Of a stretch of 64,000 nucleotides of DNA, positions 5,452 through 63,244 are shown piece after piece; position 1 is the first letter of the stretch, and each line of letters opens with the position of its first letter. Position numbers and translations under genes: made by a program. The notes under the pieces were generated by a model, which was given only the letters and a program-made list of their open reading frames with translations, ran no database searches and was not told the origin of the DNA. Source of the stretch: Streptomyces sp. NBC_01198. Lineage in GTDB: Bacteria; Actinomycetota; Actinomycetes; Streptomycetales; Streptomycetaceae. Where the stretch lies: the NCBI RefSeq assembly GCF_036010485.1, contig NZ_CP108568.1, positions 6,432,001 to 6,496,000 on the forward strand, given 5' to 3'.

Positions 5452-6888
5452 TCAGGACTCCTTCACCAGGGTGCGGGCCATGGCCAGGCCCACCAAGGCG
5501 GCGACCGCGGCCAGCGCGGCGCAGACCAGGAAGACGTCGCGGTACGCCTGCGGCCCGGCGATGCCGTGCGCGGCGATCACCGACGCGGTGGCCGCGACCC
5601 CCAGGGCGCCGCCCACCTGCCGTGCGGTGGTGGTCATGCCGACCCCGGAGGCGAACTGCCGCGGCGGCAGCGACCCGGCGGCCGCGGCGGACAGCGCGGT
5701 CAGCGCCGCGCCGAAGGCCGCGCCGCCGATCAGGCCCACCGGCAGCCACAGCGTCAGAAAGCGGGGGTCGCTGCCCAGGCCGAGATACGACCACACGCCG
5801 ACCGCGGCGAAGGCGGCCATCGACACCCCGACCACGGCCGGGAGTTGGTGCGGCTTGGCCCGGCTGCCCACCGCGAGCGCGGCGACCGCAGAGGTCAGCG
5901 CCCCGGGGGTGACGGCGAATCCGGCTTCGAGCACCGAGTAGTGCCAGACGCTGGTCAGGAACAGCGGGCTGCTGAGCAGCCAGCCGAAGAGCGCCGCACC
6001 GGTGAAGGCCGCGGCGGCCGAGGCCGCCGCGAAGGTGCGGTTGCCGAAGAGGGCCGTCTCGACGGCGGGGGCGTCGTGGCGGGTGGAGCGGACCAGCGCG
6101 ACGGCGATCAGCGCCGCGCCGCCCGCCACGCTCGCCACCGTGCCGGTGCGGGTCCAGCCCCAGTCGCTGCCCTTGGTGAGCCCCAGCACGAGCAGGGCGA
6201 TGCCCGCGGTGACCGCGGCCGTGCCCAGCGGGTCGGGGAGCCGCCGCCGGGCACCGGCGGGCTCGGGAAGGCCGCGCAGGCCGGCGAGGACCAGGGCGGC
6301 GCCGACGGGCACATTGATCAGGAAGACCGCCCGCCAGCCGAAGGCGTCGACCAGGACGCCGCCGAGGGCGGGCCCGGCCGCGGTGGCCATCGAACCGGCC
6401 GCTCCCCAGGCGCCGATGGCCGCGGGGAGCCGCTGAGGCGGGGTCGTGGCGAGCAGCAGGCCGAGGGCGGCCGGGATCATGCCCGCCGCAGTCGCGCCCT
6501 GCAGGGCGCGTGCGGTGATCAGCCACGGCAGGCCGGGCGCGCACGCGCACAGTGCGGACGCGACGGTGAAGCCGGCCAGCGAGGACAGGAAGAGCCTCTT
6601 GCGCCCGAAGGCGTCGGCGATCCGGCCCGCCGGGGTGAGCAGGGCGGCGAAGAGCACGGCGTAGCTGCTGACCACCCAGGACAGGTCGGAGACCCCGTCG
6701 GCGGGGAAGCTCCGCGCCAGGTCGGGAAAGGCGACGTTGACGACGGTGGTGTCGAGGAACGCGATGAAGGTCGCACCCGCGCTGAGCAGCAGGACGACTC
6801 CGGGACGCGCGCCCGTGCCCTGCGGGGGCGGCGGCCCCGCGGCCGGCGGTGCGGAAGAGGCGGAAGCGGGTGAGGACAGTGAGGACAT
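5452..6888 (-). CDS. MFS drug exporter, DHA2-type (14 TM)
   Basis: A 478-aa integral membrane protein with about 14 hydrophobic segments. The first helix motif FLDTTVVNVAFPDLARSF and the following GRIADAFGRKRLFLSSLAGFTVAS are hallmarks of the DHA2 (EmrB/QacA) family of proton-coupled drug exporters. The ATG at 6888 is preceded by AAGGA; an upstream in-frame ATG would add 16 residues without a ribosome binding site. It is divergent from a TetR gene at 7064 with a dyad between them, the standard arrangement for a TetR-repressed efflux pump. The SGNH hydrolase gene follows immediately. The substrate is unknown. Confidence 0.9.
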   Translation of the reverse strand: MSSLSSPASASSAPPAAGPPPPQGTGARPGVVLLLSAGATFIAFLDTTVVNVAFPDLARSFPADGVSDLSWVVSSYAVLFAALLTPAGRIADAFGRKRLFLSSLAGFTVASALCACAPGLPWLITARALQGATAAGMIPAALGLLLATTPPQRLPAAIGAWGAAGSMATAAGPALGGVLVDAFGWRAVFLINVPVGAALVLAGLRGLPEPAGARRRLPDPLGTAAVTAGIALLVLGLTKGSDWGWTRTGTVASVAGGAALIAVALVRSTRHDAPAVETALFGNRTFAAASAAAAFTGAALFGWLLSSPLFLTSVWHYSVLEAGFAVTPGALTSAVAALAVGSRAKPHQLPAVVGVSMAAFAAVGVWSYLGLGSDPRFLTLWLPVGLIGGAAFGAALTALSAAAAGSLPPRQFASGVGMTTTARQVGGALGVAATASVIAAHGIAGPQAYRDVFLVCAALAAVAALVGLAMARTLVKES

Positions 6889-55191: not shown

Positions 55192-56367
<1,176 letters not shown>

Positions 56368-56950
56368 GTCTGCTCCCTCAGGTGTCGCCAGAGGTGCGCG
56401 GCACCACGCGCTGTCGTGCACGGCTCAGGAGACCTGACTTCGGTAGCCGGCGCGACGGGTCCGTGTCTCCCGCATGCCTCTCCGGGCCGCGCACCGGGCT
56501 CAGGGGACGGTGTGTGATCCGCCGCCGGGCCGCTACGCGGAGCCCCGGCGCCCCGCCGACGTGCCGCCCGATACCCCCGCATTCCACACTAGACGACCAT
56601 GTATCGGTCGACCAGTTATGTTTTCCGGACACGACGGGCCCTGGCAACTACGGATCTCCGGCTCAGGCCACCGGTCGGCCACCGTGCCCGTCCTGGAGTA
56701 CGTGGCGACGTTCTTGTCCGCGCTCGGAGTGGGCGGCCGCGCCTGGTCGCCTCGTCGCTCCCCAAGCCCGAACCCGGGGCGCCACCCAATGTGGCGACCG
56801 AAGCGACGAACCAGGACAACGTCCAGCACTCCGCGCGCGCTGCTGGTACGCCTCGACGCGATACTCCGTGGGCATCGCGACCTGCTCAAGGGGCGCCATG
56901 CGGCGGCCTGCGTGGCAAGGGTGGATCATGGGCATGGGATCCCACCGGGG
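56368..56950. other. 583-bp intergenic region, no gene recognised
   Basis: All frames give only low-quality translations. An AT-richer patch at about 56598-56635 contains a GGTCGACC core and could hold the promoter of the formaldehyde dehydrogenase gene, some 230 bp upstream of its start. Confidence 0.5.
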
Positions 56951-57160
56951 TCAGCGGTTGCGTGCCGACTTCACCGCTCTGCGCAGCGAGTCGGCCAGCG
57001 CGGCAGCGGCGGCGATCGGCAGCAGCCACCACGCGTTCAGTCCACTCGTGGCCAACCCGGCGGTGGCGCCCAGCGCCAGTAGCGTCCAGAGGGCGACCTG
57101 CCAGTCGTCGCCGACGACGAAGTCGTACCAGAACAGGCCGAAGGCCCGGAGCCGTTTCAT
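56951..57160 (-). CDS. Small membrane protein (69 aa)
   Basis: MKRLRAFGLFWYDFVVGDDWQVALWTLLALGATAGLATSGL and a second hydrophobic stretch WWLLPIAAAAALADSL followed by a basic tail. Two membrane helices. The ATG overlaps the stop of the upstream COG4280-type gene (ATGA), which supports it being real. It is probably an accessory subunit of that protein; the function is unknown. Confidence 0.75.
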   Translation of the reverse strand: MKRLRAFGLFWYDFVVGDDWQVALWTLLALGATAGLATSGLNAWWLLPIAAAAALADSLRRAVKSARNR

Positions 57161-57927
57161 CGGGGGAGTCCTCTTCCGTCAGGCCGGCGGACTCCATGGC
57201 GTGCGGCGGCACCGCGCAGGACGCGGGTGTATCCCAGCGCGAGCAGCGCCACGGCCGGCACCAGGACCAACAAGGCCGCGTCCGCCCCCGGCCATGTCAC
57301 TTGGGCGCCCTCGGCCGACCAGAAGAGACCGAACGAGGTCAGCAGGGTGCCGACGATGAACTTCAGCGTGTTCTCCGGCACGCGGGCCAGCGGTGCCCGG
57401 ATTGCGAAGCCCGCTCCGGTCACCACGACGACAGCCAGCGCCGCGCCGAGTGCGGCCAGCGGAACGTCGTGCTGGCTGCCGCCGAAGGTGATGACGATGA
57501 ACGCGACTTCGAGGCCCTCCAGGGCGACACCCTTGAAGGCGAGGGTGAAGGCGTACCAGTCCTGGACCCGGCCGCGCCGCAGGGCCGGCGCCTGTTCGGC
57601 AGCGGCGACGTCCCGGGCGAAGGCGGCCGACTCGTCGCGCTGTTCCTTCCAGCCCGATGCCCGCAGGATCGCCTTGCGCAGCCACTGGAGGCCGAAGAGC
57701 AACAGCAGCGCGCCGACCACTACCCGCAGTCCACTGAGCGGGATCCGTGCGACAGTCGGGCCGAGGGCACCCACCACCGCGGCGAGGACGAGCAGCGCCG
57801 CGGCGGCCCCCTGCAGTGCGGACCGCCAGTGGCGGCCGGTGCCCGCGGCCAGAACCACGGTCAGCGCCTCCACCCCTTCCACCACACAGGCGAGGAAAAC
57901 CGTCACGACCAGGGCGAACGGACTCAT
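57157..57927 (-). CDS. COG4280-type multi-pass membrane protein
   Basis: A 256-aa polytopic protein with about six helices. It begins MSPFALVVTVFLACVVEGVEALTVVLAAGTGRHWRSALQGAAAA and later has FKGVALEGLEVAFIVITFGGSQHDVPLAALGAAL. Two repeated halves each carry a VEG-EA/LEG-EV acidic motif, as in UPF0016/COG4280 cation-transport-like proteins. It might transport a divalent cation. It is coupled to the 69-aa membrane protein and divergent from a COG4705-type gene. A GTCTACA-N4-TGTAAAC site lies 91 bp upstream. Confidence 0.75.
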   Translation of the reverse strand: MSPFALVVTVFLACVVEGVEALTVVLAAGTGRHWRSALQGAAAALLVLAAVVGALGPTVARIPLSGLRVVVGALLLLFGLQWLRKAILRASGWKEQRDESAAFARDVAAAEQAPALRRGRVQDWYAFTLAFKGVALEGLEVAFIVITFGGSQHDVPLAALGAALAVVVVTGAGFAIRAPLARVPENTLKFIVGTLLTSFGLFWSAEGAQVTWPGADAALLVLVPAVALLALGYTRVLRGAAARHGVRRPDGRGLPR

Positions 57928-58018
57928 GCCACACTTCCCCTTCTCCGGAGCGCCTACTCGGGGAGCCGGACGATAGCCGGGACCGGCAGGCGGGCTCGCA
58001 CGCACCCGCCGCACCTGT

Positions 58019-58036
58019 GTCTACAGCCTTGTAAAC
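58019..58036. promoter_or_regulatory. Operator copy A (GTCTACA-N4-TGTAAAC)
   Basis: An 18-bp imperfect dyad, one mismatch between arms, 91 bp upstream of the COG4280-type gene. It is the same motif as at 58203-58220. Confidence 0.65.
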
Positions 58037-58202
58037 AGCGCTGATCGCAGTGTGCCACGGGACTTCGGCAATTCCCCCGGGGCCACCGGAGGTGACGCGG
58101 GCCGCGACCGTGCCGGCCGGGAGAACGGCGAGGGGGGCTGACGGCGTCGCCCATAACGCACGTGCTGGTGCGAGGGTCGGTGGTGCCGCCTGCCGCCTCA
58201 TC

Positions 58203-58220
58203 GTCTACATTTCTGTAGAC
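58203..58220. promoter_or_regulatory. Operator copy B (GTCTACA-N4-TGTAGAC)
   Basis: A perfect 18-bp dyad with 7-bp arms, 45 bp upstream of the COG4705-type gene. TACA-TGTA symmetry recalls BlaI/CopY-type operators, although those usually have a 2-nt spacer. No regulator gene is adjacent. Confidence 0.7.
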
Positions 58221-58265
58221 ACTGATGGATGCGGCGTGTGCAGCGCCGGGAGAGCGGCGGTGCCC

Positions 58266-59108
58266 ATGGGACAGAGTGGCTACGGTTACGACTCGGGAGC
58301 CGGTGCCGGACTGGGGACCGATCCCGGGCCGGTCGGACACCGGCAGCTTTCCGAGGCAGCGGAGGCGCAGGCGTGGAGCAAGGTCCCCGAGGTCACCGTA
58401 CTGTTCTGGACGACCAAGATCCTCACCACTGGGATGGGCGAGACCACCTCCGACTTCCTGTCGAAGTCCCCAGCGGTAGGGGGCGCCCTCGGCCTGATCG
58501 GCTTCACCGGTTTCCTGTGGCTTCAGTTCCGCGCGCCCCGCTACTCGCCGTGGATCTACTGGGGGGCGATCGTGATGGTGAGCATCTTCGGCACCATGGC
58601 CGCCGACATCGTGCACGTCGTCGGCATCCCTTACGCCGTCTCCACGGTGGTGTTCGTCCTGGCGCTGGCCGGCATTCTGACCGCTTGGTACCGCAGCGAG
58701 GGCACGCTCTCCATCCACAGCATCCACACCCCGCGCCGCGAACGGTTCTACTGGGCGACCGTATTGGCCACCTTCGCCCTCGGTACGGCGGCCGGCGACC
58801 TCACCGCTACGTCCTTCCGTCTCGGCTACTTCTCCTCCGGCGTCCTCTTCGCCGCCCTGATCGCCGTGCCGGCACTGGCCCGGCTCGCCGGACTCAACGC
58901 GGTGGCCGCCTTCTGGTGGGCCTACGTACTGACCCGGCCGCTGGGCGCCTCCTTCGCGGACTGGATGGGCGTGTCCAAGGACAGGGGCGGACTCGGCTGG
59001 GGCACCGGCCCGGTCAGCCTGGTGCTGGCCGTCCTGATCGCGGCCCTCGTGGCCTGCCTCGCCGCCCAGCACCGCCGACACCGGAGGCCTGCCGTCGCCG
59101 CCGACTGA
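58266..59108 (+). CDS. COG4705-type multi-pass membrane protein
   Basis: A 280-aa protein with about eight helices in two repeats, each starting with a VPEVTVLFWTTKILTTGMGETTSDFL or ERFYWATVLATFALGTAAGDLTATSF motif. The acidic residues inside helices suggest cation handling. The N-terminal 40 residues are Gly-rich and soluble. ATG 58266 was chosen; the ribosome binding site GGAGAG is rather distant. It is divergent from the COG4280-type gene, and both promoters carry the same dyad, so they are probably co-regulated. The function is unknown. Confidence 0.75.
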   Translation: MGQSGYGYDSGAGAGLGTDPGPVGHRQLSEAAEAQAWSKVPEVTVLFWTTKILTTGMGETTSDFLSKSPAVGGALGLIGFTGFLWLQFRAPRYSPWIYWGAIVMVSIFGTMAADIVHVVGIPYAVSTVVFVLALAGILTAWYRSEGTLSIHSIHTPRRERFYWATVLATFALGTAAGDLTATSFRLGYFSSGVLFAALIAVPALARLAGLNAVAAFWWAYVLTRPLGASFADWMGVSKDRGGLGWGTGPVSLVLAVLIAALVACLAAQHRRHRRPAVAAD

Positions 59109-59371
59109 CACCCCGACCGGCTCCGACTCTGCCGCGACAGTGTGTGGCACTTGTTCGGAACCGGGGCTTCTGGCCGGCGTCACGGCCGGTCAGGAGCCTG
59201 GTCGTCTTCCTGCGATATCCCGTGCGCGGACCGGGCCGAGGTCCCTCTTGCAGCGGCTGGCGCAACGCGCGTGCCGCGTCGGACTGCACCTGTCCGACAT
59301 CCCCCGGGAGGCTGTTCGACCCCACCCAGGTCACGATCGGCCGCGGCTATTCCCTGCAGATCTACTACTGT

Positions 59372-60049
59372 TCATCCCGAGGGGTTGGGGCGGGTCAGGC
59401 CGAGGTCGTAGGCGAAAATCACGGCCTGGACGCGGTCCCTGGCGCCGATCTTCGCCAAAACCCGGCCGACGTGCGTCTTGACGGTGGATTCCGACAGCAC
59501 CAGGCGTTCGGCGATCTCGCCATTGGTACAGCCTTCACCCATCACCGTCAGGATCTCCCGTTCGCGATCGGTGAGGGTCTGCCACCGCGGGTCGCGGTCG
59601 GCACCGCCGTGACGCGGGCTGACCGGCAGTCGGCCGGCGTACGTGTCGAGCAGCCGCCGGGTCAGAGCGGGTGCGATCACCGCGTCGCCTTTCGCCACGG
59701 CACGGATCCCGGACAGCAGTTCTTCCGGCCGGGCGTCCTTGAGCAGAAAGCCACTGGCGCCGGCACGCAGCGCGGCGTGGGCGTATTCGTCGACGTCGAA
59801 GGTGGTGAGGACGAGGATGCGGGAGCGTCCGCCGCCGGCGACGATGCGGCGGGTGGCCTCGATGCCGTCCATTCCGGGCATGCGCACGTCCATCAGGACG
59901 ACGTCGGGTCGCAGGACGGCCGCTTGGCGGACGGCCTCCGCGCCGTGGGCCGCTTCGCCGACCACCTCCGTGTCCGGTGCGGTCTCCAGCAGCATGCGGA
60001 AACCCAGACATTGCAGTGGCTGGTCGTCCACGATGAGGACAGTGGTCAC
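59372..60049 (-). CDS. NarL/FixJ-type response regulator
   Basis: A 225-aa regulator. The receiver domain is residues 1-120 with acidic pocket Asp8/Asp9, phosphorylation site Asp54 (VVLMDVRMPG) and Lys104 (FLLKDA). The LuxR-type HTH is at about 158-215 (LTDREREILTVMGEGCTNGEIAERLVLSESTVKTHVGRVLAKIG). The GTG start overlaps the stop of the histidine kinase gene in a GTGA. It controls, most likely, the ABC exporter genes upstream in the same operon. Confidence 0.93.
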   Translation of the reverse strand: MTTVLIVDDQPLQCLGFRMLLETAPDTEVVGEAAHGAEAVRQAAVLRPDVVLMDVRMPGMDGIEATRRIVAGGGRSRILVLTTFDVDEYAHAALRAGASGFLLKDARPEELLSGIRAVAKGDAVIAPALTRRLLDTYAGRLPVSPRHGGADRDPRWQTLTDREREILTVMGEGCTNGEIAERLVLSESTVKTHVGRVLAKIGARDRVQAVIFAYDLGLTRPNPSG

Positions 60050-61404
60050 GTCGGACCGCCTGACGATTCGGGGCATCGGGTGAGGTTGAGCACGGCCTCG
60101 ACGGTCCAACCTCCGCCGGGACCGGGTCCCGCTACGACGTCTCCGCCGTAGAGGGCGACGCGTTCTTTGATTCCGCCCAGCCCATGCCCTTCGGCGGGCT
60201 GAGGACCGAACCGGTCGGCACCGCCCGGCCCTCCCGTGTCCTGGACCCGTACCCGTAGCCGGGCGTCGTCGAGGCTGATGGCCACATGTGCCCAGGTGTC
60301 GGGGCCTGCGTGCTTCAGGGTGTTGGTGAGTGCTTCCTGGACGATGCGGTAGACCATCAGCTGAATGGCGGGGTCCAACGTGTCCAGGGCGCCGCTGGAG
60401 TGGTACATGACTCGGGGTCCGGCGGCCCTGATGCGTGTGTACAGGGCGTCCAGGTCCGCGATGACGGGCTGCGGGTTGAGCTGGGGAGCGTCCGTCTGCT
60501 CGCGCAGGACGCCGAGCATGCGCCGCAGTTCCCCCAGGGCCCTTCGCCCGGTGTCCCCGATGAGCAGCAGGGCTTCCCTGCCTCGTTCGGGCGTGGTCTC
60601 GACAGCGTACGCGCCGCCGTCGGCGAGTGTGATGATCACCGACAGGTTGTGGCCGATGATGTCGTGCATCTCCCGGGCCACTCGGGTGCGTTCGGCGACA
60701 GCGGCCAGTTTGCTGCGCTGGTCGCGCTCCGTCTCCAGACGCGCGGCGCGCTCGCGCAAGCCGGCCAGTTGAGCCCGGCGGATGCGTACCGCCAGTCCCA
60801 GGGCGACGGCGGCCGTCGCGGCGCTGTAGAGGAAGAACAGGGCATCCGGAGCGGACACCGCGCTCGAGTAGCGGACAGCCACCAGGCTCAGCGCTGCTGC
60901 CATCGCCGCGCACGCCCAGGGCAAATGGCGCAGGCGCCCGTGCAGCGCCAAGCTGTACAGCGCCACGAGCAGCGCGGCATCGGCACGCAGCAGTGCTCCC
61001 AGCGACCATTGGAGGAGGAATACGGCCAGGGCGATGGCGAGCGTCGCCGTCGGAGCGCGACGCCTCCACAGCAGAGGAAGGACGAGACCGGCTTGTACCG
61101 CCAGGGTTCCCACCACCGGCAGGCGGGTGATCATGTCGTGGATGCCGCGTGGGCCGTCGGGGTCCACCAGGTCGGGCACGCAGAACATCAGGAAGACCCA
61201 GCTCACCACGGCCGTGTCCAGCAGCCAGGGACGGTTGCGGTCCGTCTGGCGCATCCACGCGCCGGTCCGGGCTGCCCAGGCGACCAGCTGATGCCCCGAC
61301 AGCGCGTCGGCAGGCGCGAGCCGCAGGCTGCCTGGTCCGCCGTCCAGCGGGCTGTCGTAGCTGTTCGCCGATGTCATGTCTTCCGTAGTCCAGGTCGTTG
61401 GCAT
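60046..61404 (-). CDS. Sensor histidine kinase, HisKA_3 type
   Basis: A 452-aa membrane kinase. About five to six helices form the N-terminal sensor half (residues 60-220) without an extracellular domain. A coiled linker follows. The H-box is REMHDIIGHNLSVIITLADGG, and the C-terminal HATPase contains VYRIVQEALTNTLKHAG and GHGLGGIKERVALYGG. This is the NarX/DesK-type kinase common beside ABC-2 exporters. ATG 61404 or 61377 may be the start. Partner of the response regulator at 60049. Confidence 0.9.
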   Translation of the reverse strand: MPTTWTTEDMTSANSYDSPLDGGPGSLRLAPADALSGHQLVAWAARTGAWMRQTDRNRPWLLDTAVVSWVFLMFCVPDLVDPDGPRGIHDMITRLPVVGTLAVQAGLVLPLLWRRRAPTATLAIALAVFLLQWSLGALLRADAALLVALYSLALHGRLRHLPWACAAMAAALSLVAVRYSSAVSAPDALFFLYSAATAAVALGLAVRIRRAQLAGLRERAARLETERDQRSKLAAVAERTRVAREMHDIIGHNLSVIITLADGGAYAVETTPERGREALLLIGDTGRRALGELRRMLGVLREQTDAPQLNPQPVIADLDALYTRIRAAGPRVMYHSSGALDTLDPAIQLMVYRIVQEALTNTLKHAGPDTWAHVAISLDDARLRVRVQDTGGPGGADRFGPQPAEGHGLGGIKERVALYGGDVVAGPGPGGGWTVEAVLNLTRCPESSGGPT

Positions 61405-61460
61405 GTCGCAGCGCCGGAGAGGGTCGGCGCTGCGACGGTGGTGGAGCCTCGACGGTGCCC

Positions 61461-62309
61461 TCAGGCGTCGCTGTGCACCAGGCGCCACGCGGCACCGGCC
61501 AGCGCGAGCACGGTCCAGCCCAGGAACACGGCAAGACCGGCCGCCGGCGCGAGGGTGGTGGCGTCGTGATGCAGGGTGAAAAGCGCCTCACCGGCGTTGC
61601 TGGGCAGGTAGGGGCTGATGTTGTCCTGCCAGGAATTGGGCAGCAGCGAGACCAGGCCGGGGATGAGCATCAGCGTGGCGACCAGCACCGAGACGCCGCC
61701 CGCCACTGACCGAAGGAGCGCGCCGAGTGCGGTGCCGATCACAGCGACCAGGCCGAGGTACAGGCCCGCTCCGAAGAGAGCCCGTACGGCTCCGGCGTGG
61801 GAAATGCTGAGGTCCGCCGGTGTGCCGGAGACGATGCTGCTGCCGAACAGAAAGGTGACGAACGCCCCGACCGTGCTGATGACCAGAGCGACCGCGCCGA
61901 AGACCGCGGCCTTGGACCACAGCACCGGCAGGCGGCGCGGTACCGCGGCCAGGGTGGAACGGATCATGCCGGTCGAGTACTCACCTGCGGTGACCAGGAC
62001 GCCCAGGACGCCGAGCGCCAGCTGGGCGAAGTTGGTACCGAAGAGGGAAAGGCTGACCGCTGTGGAGTTGGCGAAGTCCGCGTCCATGTGCTCGCCGGAG
62101 TCGACGGCGGACTTGTACCGCGCGGAGGCGATCAGCCCGAAGGCGACCAGGAACAGCAGGCCCAGCCCGAGGGTGATCCACGTGGAGCGCAGGGTCCAGA
62201 GCTTTGCCCACTCCGAGCGCAGAACCCGCGGGCCGGTCACCTTGTAGAGAGGACGCGCGGGCCCGACGGATGTGGGGTCGGGGGGCTGAGTGGTGGTGAC
62301 GGTGGTCAT
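61461..62309 (-). CDS. ABC-2-type transporter permease
   Basis: A 282-aa membrane protein with about six helices: LRSEWAKLWTLRSTWITLGLGLLFLVAFGLIAS at the start, QLALGVLGVLVTAGEYSTGMIRSTLAAVPRR, and further pairs near 150-180, 195-220 and 250-275. These are the features of streptomycete ABC-2 permeases. Its ATG shares one base with the ATPase stop. With the ATPase at 63244 it forms an exporter of unknown substrate, possibly an antibiotic or lipid. Confidence 0.88.
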   Translation of the reverse strand: MTTVTTTQPPDPTSVGPARPLYKVTGPRVLRSEWAKLWTLRSTWITLGLGLLFLVAFGLIASARYKSAVDSGEHMDADFANSTAVSLSLFGTNFAQLALGVLGVLVTAGEYSTGMIRSTLAAVPRRLPVLWSKAAVFGAVALVISTVGAFVTFLFGSSIVSGTPADLSISHAGAVRALFGAGLYLGLVAVIGTALGALLRSVAGGVSVLVATLMLIPGLVSLLPNSWQDNISPYLPSNAGEALFTLHHDATTLAPAAGLAVFLGWTVLALAGAAWRLVHSDA

Positions 62310-63244
62310 CAGGCGGCCCTCCCGGGAGTGTCGACGCTGATGGTGCCGTGGTACTCGACGGCATCCCGGGTCAGGTCCATGAAGGCCTGTTCCAGGGAAA
62401 CAGCGCGGTCGCTGAGCTCGAACAGCGGGATGCCGTGCTCGGCTGCCTTGTAACCGATGGCGCGGGCGGTCATACCGATCACCTGCAGTTCCTCCGTGCC
62501 CGCCTCCCCGGTGATCTCGATGCCCGGGCCGGCCAGCACCTCGCGCAGGCGGGCCGGGTCGGCGGTCGCCACGCTCACGGTGTCGCCGCCGGCCGCTCGG
62601 ACAAGATCCTTGACGGTGGTGTCGGCCAGGAGCCGTCCGCGGCCGACGACGATGAGCTGGTCGGCGACCAGTGCCATCTCACTCATCAGGTGCGAGGAGA
62701 CGAAGACGGTGCGGCCTTCTCCGGCCAGCCCGGTGAGCAGGTTCCGTATCCACAGCACACCCTCGGGGTCCAGCCCGTTGACCGGCTCGTCGAGCATGAC
62801 GGTGGCCGGATCACCCAGCAGCGCGGCGGCGATGCCCAGGCGCTGGCCCATGCCGAGGGAGAACGCTCCGGCGCGCTTCCTGGCCACCGGCTGCAGGCCG
62901 GTCAGCTCGATCACCTCCTCGACCCGGCGACGCGGGATGCCGTGCGAGAGCGCCAGGGCGTTGAGGTGGTGGTAGGCCGAGCGCCCTGGGTGGATCGACT
63001 TGGCCTCCAGGAGCGCGCCGACCTCTTGGAGGGGCGCGCGGTGGTCGGCGTATCGTTTGCCGTTGACCGAGACGTTGCCGCTCGTGGGTGCGTCCAGCCC
63101 GACGATCATGCGCATGGTCGTGGACTTGCCGGCGCCGTTCGGACCGAGGAACCCGGTGACGGTGCCGGGCCGGACGACGAAGGCCAACTCGTCGACCGCG
63201 GTCTTCTCCCCGTACCGCTTCGTCAGCTCACGTGCCTCGATCAT
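62309..63244 (-). CDS. ABC transporter ATP-binding protein (DrrA-like)
   Basis: A 311-aa ATPase. Walker A GPNGAGKST is at about 37-45, the signature FSLGMGQRLGIAAAL (LSGGQ variant) at about 131, and Walker B ATVMLDEPVNGLDPEG follows. A C-terminal extension (about 220-311) is typical of DrrA/CcmA-type exporters. First gene of a four-gene operon with permease, kinase and regulator. Confidence 0.92.
   Translation of the reverse strand: MIEARELTKRYGEKTAVDELAFVVRPGTVTGFLGPNGAGKSTTMRMIVGLDAPTSGNVSVNGKRYADHRAPLQEVGALLEAKSIHPGRSAYHHLNALALSHGIPRRRVEEVIELTGLQPVARKRAGAFSLGMGQRLGIAAALLGDPATVMLDEPVNGLDPEGVLWIRNLLTGLAGEGRTVFVSSHLMSEMALVADQLIVVGRGRLLADTTVKDLVRAAGGDTVSVATADPARLREVLAGPGIEITGEAGTEELQVIGMTARAIGYKAAEHGIPLFELSDRAVSLEQAFMDLTRDAVEYHGTISVDTPGRAA

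Follow-up and report, generated by a model that had tools for sequence, protein, structure and literature searches.

Two inverted repeats between divergent membrane-protein genes of Streptomyces sp. NBC_01198 are probably operators of a BlaI/MecI-family repressor encoded far from them, whose regulon would serve undecaprenyl-phosphate recycling under envelope stress. We analysed a window of 64,000 nucleotides (contig NZ_CP108568.1, positions 6,432,001 to 6,496,000). An earlier note had described there a divergent pair of membrane-protein genes (of COG4280 type and COG4705 type; OFeT_1 and DUF347 below), a gene for a 69-aa membrane protein coupled to the first, and GTCTACA-N4-TGTARAC-type dyads in the promoters of the pair. 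Genes and dyads are present as described:

56951..57160, minus strand: gene for a 69-aa membrane protein (from the ORF list), with a 4-base overlap (ATGA) with the OFeT_1 stop
57157..57927, minus strand: OFeT_1 (iron/lead transporter type) permease, 256 aa, start MSPF (PF16955, 45.1 bits against a cut-off of 26.9)
58019..58036, no strand: predicted operator 1, GTCTACAGCCTTGTAAAC, at one mismatch from the consensus and 92 bp before OFeT_1
58203..58220, no strand: predicted operator 2, GTCTACATTTCTGTAGAC, matching the consensus palindrome exactly, 46 bp before DUF347
58266..59108, plus strand: DUF347 membrane-protein gene, 280 aa, four repeats (PF03988, 158.5 bits against a cut-off of 28.2, in 4 stretches)

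The divergent genes are separated by a 338-bp gap, and both dyads lie inside it. A scan of 57900-58300 for sigma-70 promoters found none. The 69-aa protein had no match in Pfam and NCBIfam profile searches; its gene adjoins OFeT_1 in 17 of the 18 copies in the genus, so the two look like an old operon. Besides scoring above the PF16955 cut-off, the OFeT_1 protein has two ExxE pairs (E17/E20 and E137/E140) that are invariant in an alignment of 11 rows and lie inside predicted helices, as membership of this family, an iron-lead transporter in the Pfam description, would have it. Its scores are below the NCBIfam cut-offs for EfeU (19.2 against 255 bits) and TIGR00145 (20.5 against 303.8 bits). 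In DUF347, residues E59, D63, D114, D178 and D232 are invariant (8 rows) and also inside predicted helices, so the earlier observation of acidic residues within helices is borne out for both proteins. The cation transport suggested from it is plausible for OFeT_1, given the Pfam family and the two ExxE motifs, whereas for DUF347 we only infer it. Structure models of the two proteins (mean pLDDT 75 for OFeT_1 and 81 for DUF347) returned no Foldseek match under an E value of 0.001. VIA-align placed HGSNAT first for the DUF347 model, with a Z of 7.1; this score is one that common helical arrangements also reach, and we therefore read no function from it.

Conservation of the intergenic region was followed in the nearest relative with the gene pair (G032). 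The middle of the region is deleted there between the sites, and the arms of both are retained: those of the 58019 site are identical, and the 58203 site is also kept. Homology to the compared 18 kb of G032 covers 56950-59113 apart from this deletion and stops at both gene ends, so the pair looks as if it moves as a cassette. Among the other genes of the window, those next to the pair, in 59372-61488 and 61461-63244 (both minus strand), are for a response regulator (Response_reg and GerE) and a histidine kinase (HisKA_3), followed by ORFs that resemble an ABC transporter pair by eye. This region contained no operator at up to three mismatches. The product of 55192-56421 (minus strand) is a zinc alcohol dehydrogenase, nearest to glutathione-independent formaldehyde dehydrogenase (306 bits against a model cut-off of 637).

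The operator motif and the genes behind it

We searched the 7.9-Mb genome for RWCTACAN4TGTAGWY and calculated chance expectations from a third-order Markov model trained on five stretches of this genome, the window among them. There were five exact matches, with 0.05 expected, and seven matches at up to one mismatch, with 2.2 expected. The scan that the earlier note had proposed as a check thus pointed to a larger regulon than the pair, and all seven sites stand upstream of some gene. The sites outside the window, with the repressor gene discussed below, are:

1916831: site before a second DUF347 gene (genome motif scan)
G000:C1:4834299-4834805: BlaI/MecI-family repressor gene of this genome, 1.66 Mb from the pair (PF03965, 79.1 bits against 22.6)
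4834829 and 4834848: tandem dyads between the BlaI-protease genes and a divergent DedA-PAP2 pair
6867168: site before a PAP2 phosphatase gene (genome motif scan)
6879920: site before a UppP/BacA gene, one mismatch (genome motif scan)

We asked how much of this could be accidental. With 2.2 sites of this quality or better expected, the two that carry a mismatch (58019 and the one before UppP) are not beyond chance by number, and the 58019 site taken alone is not beyond chance either; these are the points in favour of the dyads being chance palindromes without function. The 58203 site, an exact match, clearly exceeds chance expectation. Of the 35 genomes of the genus, 33 contain exact sites, 126 in total, compared with 2 sites for the reversed pattern. 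This excess, the position upstream of genes, the classes of those genes and the conservation in G032 leave a chance origin with practically no probability at the level of the whole motif, where the reversed-pattern control and the Markov expectation rule it out. The view that the two genes have an operator in common is upheld by the two dyads in their shared intergenic region and by the spread of the motif through genome and genus.

Of 200 family genomes, 97 contain the stricter GTCTACAN4TGTAGAC and none contains its control. The free spacer is biased as well: its first base is G in 116 and its last base C in 115 of 177 site-gene pairs (one mismatch allowed; sites between divergent genes enter twice). 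At the class level, RWCTACAN4TGTAGWY occurs exactly in 23 of 197 genomes. Seventeen of these are outside the family, and at the one locus taken from each (L300-L315 and L321) regulon genes are absent within 1.5 kb of the exact match. Eight genomes of another family (f26; L307-L314) have AACTACA-N4-TGTAGTT palindromes, 14 sites in all, with none of the regulon genes at the eight loci fetched; these are perhaps the sites of another regulator.

We next examined the genes behind the sites in relatives, for which the 78 loci fetched hold 85 distinct exact sites, from 121 outside this genome. Seventy-six of the 85 lie no more than 300 bp upstream of regulon families, counted as BlaI, DedA, PAP2, DUF347, UppP (two kinds), phosphodiesterase and EfeU. 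The second kind of UppP has 28-30% identity to UppP and 39% to a protein (at L233) called BacA by Pfam. The remaining nine sites include those of two family-2 glycosyltransferases, a metallophosphoesterase and a fasciclin protein, and two others (L045, L100) belong to genes that look polysaccharide deacetylase-like by eye. For DUF347, an exact site is found upstream of 16 of 30 loci in the genus, which amounts to 16 of the 19 loci with identity of at least 64%; the 14 of 30 loci with no exact site upstream count against our preferred explanation. Of 18 OFeT_1 copies, 7 have a core site (one mismatch allowed) in the 300 bp before the gene, and none has the reversed core. OFeT_1 belongs to the regulon only partly, in some species.

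A candidate repressor and its protease

The genome has three BlaI-family (PF03965) genes, at 0.82, 3.39 and 4.83 Mb, and the window has none. The 4.83 Mb gene most likely encodes the reader of the operator, acting from 1.66 Mb away. The sole solved chain matched by its product is 2g9w, which we take to be Mycobacterium BlaI. The tandem TACA/TGTA dyads of its own promoter stand 24 and 43 bp before the gene. The best BlaI match has the operator (one mismatch allowed) upstream in 30 of the 30 genomes fetched, with two sites in 25. These loci are the best match per genome in 30 of the 35 genus genomes, the five lowest-scoring being left out; in one (L173) the BlaI gene was unmatched and the row was read from the protease and DedA neighbours, and in another (L180) DedA was unmatched. 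The only genus genomes without exact sites, G008 and G025, also have no close ortholog (best BlaI 58% and 47%), and the two other BlaI genes of this genome have no CTACA/TGTAG dyad upstream. A TACA/TGTA core is given for the BlaI operator in one report (PMC4549145), and tandem GTCTAT-type inverted repeats are described as the operator form of Clostridium BlaI in another (PMC8457756). On these grounds we favour the 4.83 Mb protein, and control from elsewhere, as the earlier note had supposed, is probable.

It is improbable, on the same evidence, that the sites are recognised by some other protein, such as either of the remaining two BlaI paralogs or a dimeric regulator unrelated to them, although several observations lean that way. 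Genus genomes contain 2 to 8 matches each to the 4.83 Mb BlaI, and further BlaI genes are near DUF347 genes in many of them. Two genomes have exact sites yet no close ortholog (G010, 2 sites, best BlaI 53%; G016, 1 site, 52%, this genome being 71% complete). In G032 a divergent BlaI (43-46%) and a protease stand directly beside the OFeT_1/DUF347 pair, and the region upstream of this BlaI has no RWCTACA-N4-TGTAGWY-type operator, so the true regulator partner of the pair could differ. The cognate-looking protease-BlaI pair of that locus (L214, 7869-9187) shows a different dyad, CACCGATATCGGTG, in its own upstream region. The absence of an adjacent regulator noted earlier therefore holds for this genome but not for G032, nor for a Frankia cluster described below, where BlaI and protease genes are adjacent. 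We also looked for the remnant of a lost BlaI-protease pair downstream of DUF347; a window-wide tblastn with the G032 proteins gave a best E value of 0.35, and the idea was rejected.

The 4.83 Mb BlaI gene adjoins a gene for a 303-aa protease in which H167, E168 and H171 (HExxH) are invariant across 5 aligned proteins. Its membrane location was read from hydrophobic sequence. Pfam assigned it to Peptidase_M48 (51.7 bits), with no M56 row; the protease domain at 109-183 was the only Pfam match, and a C-terminal penicillin-binding sensor domain was not found. In the staphylococcal systems, a membrane zinc-protease is reported to remove the repressor upon a signal (PMC7593790, PMC9834060). Since no penicillin sensor was found in the protease here, the inducing signal should differ from penicillin. 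What the sequence shows is a genome-wide set of predicted operators, the conservation of these sites, and the pairing of the putative repressor gene with a protease gene.

Carrier recycling, metal and pH

Lipid-carrier recycling is the target of bacitracin. C55-PP is dephosphorylated by UppP and PAP2 proteins (PMC4790310), and DedA proteins are candidate C55-P translocases, named as such only in 2022 (PMC9876793), so that one operator would span the outer half of the carrier cycle. As the regulon core (UppP, PAP2 and DedA) corresponds to undecaprenyl-phosphate recycling, envelope stress is the best reading of the signal. In the mechanism we propose, a BlaI dimer bound to GTCTACA-N4-TGTAGAC would silence the target promoters, and would repress its own promoter too, via the two tandem dyads. 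A disturbed envelope, short of lipid carrier, would be the signal upon which the putative membrane protease with its HExxH motif removes the repressor. Derepression would then supply the external half of the undecaprenyl-phosphate cycle, that is, the UppP and PAP2 phosphatases and DedA as a candidate flippase, and DUF347 and the ExxE iron-type permease, both with presumed activities, would be made alongside these recycling genes.

We tested the place of DUF347 in this scheme from its gene neighbourhood, using the best 80 of at least 592 loci, named and from several phyla (about 6 kb reach, 0.91 Mb). UppP lies within about 6 kb in 7 of these loci, DedA in 10 and both in 4; the seven with UppP are in Actinomycetota and Bacillota. 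About 0.24 loci with UppP would be expected from the density of BacA (68 matches, some of them fragments, in about 260 Mb from 60 class genomes), a rough comparison, as search methods and taxa differ. The operator (at up to one mismatch) is within 350 bp upstream in 13 of the 80 loci, all Streptomycetaceae, in a count that took in only loci with a match beginning near base 6000. Among distant DUF347 neighbours, BacA and LD-carboxypeptidase had two matches each; here 50 of 188 proteins were scanned and 25 of 48 families listed, and we therefore use only the links to UppP and DedA. We conclude that DUF347 is tied to the carrier cycle by operator and gene neighbourhood.

In a Frankia alni MAG (L247), UppP, DedA, DUF347, OFeT_1, the 69-aa gene, protease and BlaI stand in one cluster; the operator is absent from the two gaps scanned there, at up to three mismatches. 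Islands in two other genomes (L207, L208 and L209 in G019 and G007) have extra BlaI-protease genes, PAP2 and DUF347, and that of G019 adds an MGDG-synthase-like protein, a polysaccharide deacetylase and a MacB/FtsX exporter.

A rather unlikely alternative is that the same BlaI and regulon answer lead or an excess of iron as a toxic metal. The cation would be moved by DUF347, OFeT_1 or both, and phosphate set free outside the cell by UppP/PAP2 would precipitate it in the manner of PbrB from Cupriavidus. A Frankia study describes DUF347 as a potential metal transporter and includes three paralogous operons with UppP and DUF347 among lead-induced genes (PMC4531530), and PbrB is reported to dephosphorylate C55-PP, precipitating lead with the phosphate (PMC4790310). 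OFeT_1 is itself of the iron-lead type, and its divergent place beside DUF347 is taken by the iron permease EfeU at two Streptomyces loci (L222, L223). The layout there is that of the window pair, and of the two operators between the genes one is exact and the other has a mismatch. Neither EfeU nor OFeT_1 is an obvious envelope gene, which weighs against envelope stress. However, the conserved core (BlaI-protease divergent from DedA-PAP2, and UppP) needs no metal, two operator genes in relatives are the glycosyltransferases, and the extra-BlaI island carries a glycolipid synthase, a polysaccharide deacetylase and a PAP2 protein. The signal of CopY is copper. Beta-lactams are known signals of BlaI and MecI (PMC7593790). 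We hold envelope stress likelier than metal because the carrier cycle is the most conserved core and envelope genes occur in the extra-BlaI island. As for the metal or stress regulon proposed earlier, the evidence speaks for envelope stress no less than for metal, and the regulon is not limited to the pair, its core being UppP, PAP2 and DedA.

It is also doubtful that the regulon serves pH (acid) stress, with carrier recycling and cation handling adjusted jointly. Several DUF347 matches (among L228-L299) come from acid-named or peat sources (Acidithiobacillus, Acidiphilium, Alicyclobacillus, Streptacidiphilus, and palsa and fen MAGs), but many others come from organisms without such names. The use of DUF368/DedA translocases is described as pH-dependent, but the effect reported is alkaline (PMC9876793). 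The metal and pH readings share repressor and regulon with the envelope-stress reading, and the three are not exclusive of one another.

As one joint and tentative suggestion that goes beyond envelope stress in general, the sensor-less BlaI-protease pair might monitor the undecaprenyl-phosphate pool and turn on the entire external recycling branch, with DUF347 as a working part of that branch, for example a second carrier translocase or an ion-coupling partner of UppP/DedA, and with the ExxE permease handling the phosphatases' cation by supplying or removing it. More broadly, the set is probably best described as a lipid-carrier recycling regulon under a BlaI-type repressor, with DUF347 as a member and OFeT_1 as another in some species. 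DUF347, which is widespread and of unknown function according to Pfam, would gain a testable role through an operator shared with UppP, PAP2 and DedA, and a BlaI repressor without a penicillin sensor would gain a likely job. Two membrane proteins of unknown role would likewise gain a likely job and a named candidate controller, and the operator could be a ready reporter for finding the inducing signal.

Relation to known systems

Among the matches listed in the open-licence literature, we found no description of this regulon. Its closest counterparts in regulation are the BlaI/MecI-BlaR1/MecR1 systems (Staphylococcus; BlaI Rv1846c of Mycobacterium tuberculosis), with which it shares the Penicillinase_R domain, TACA/TGTA dyads, a self-operator and an adjacent gene for a HExxH membrane metalloprotease. 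It differs from BlaR1/MecR1 in that the protease has 303 aa and no beta-lactam sensor domain was found in it, and from the BlaI/MecI systems in that the predicted regulon comprises UppP, PAP2, DedA, DUF347 and an iron-type permease. The targets reported for Mycobacterium BlaI are blaC, ftsQ and Rv1303, the last co-transcribed with ATP synthase genes (PMC12565901).

Clostridium thermocellum BlaI_0696 and BlaI_1845, as described in PMC8457756, share GTCTAT/GACTAT inverted repeats and two tandem dyads at the repressor promoter. In that account the GTCTAT arms are five apart, whereas here the GTCTACA arms are four apart; the regulons are small and largely of sensory genes; and two dyads are seemingly strictly required, whereas most targets here have one. 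With pbr lead resistance and the Frankia DUF347-UppP idea, the regulon has in common a C55-PP phosphatase with a metal-type membrane protein, and DUF347 beside UppP (PMC4531530, PMC4790310), but its candidate repressor is of the BlaI family, whereas that of pbr is the MerR-type PbrR.
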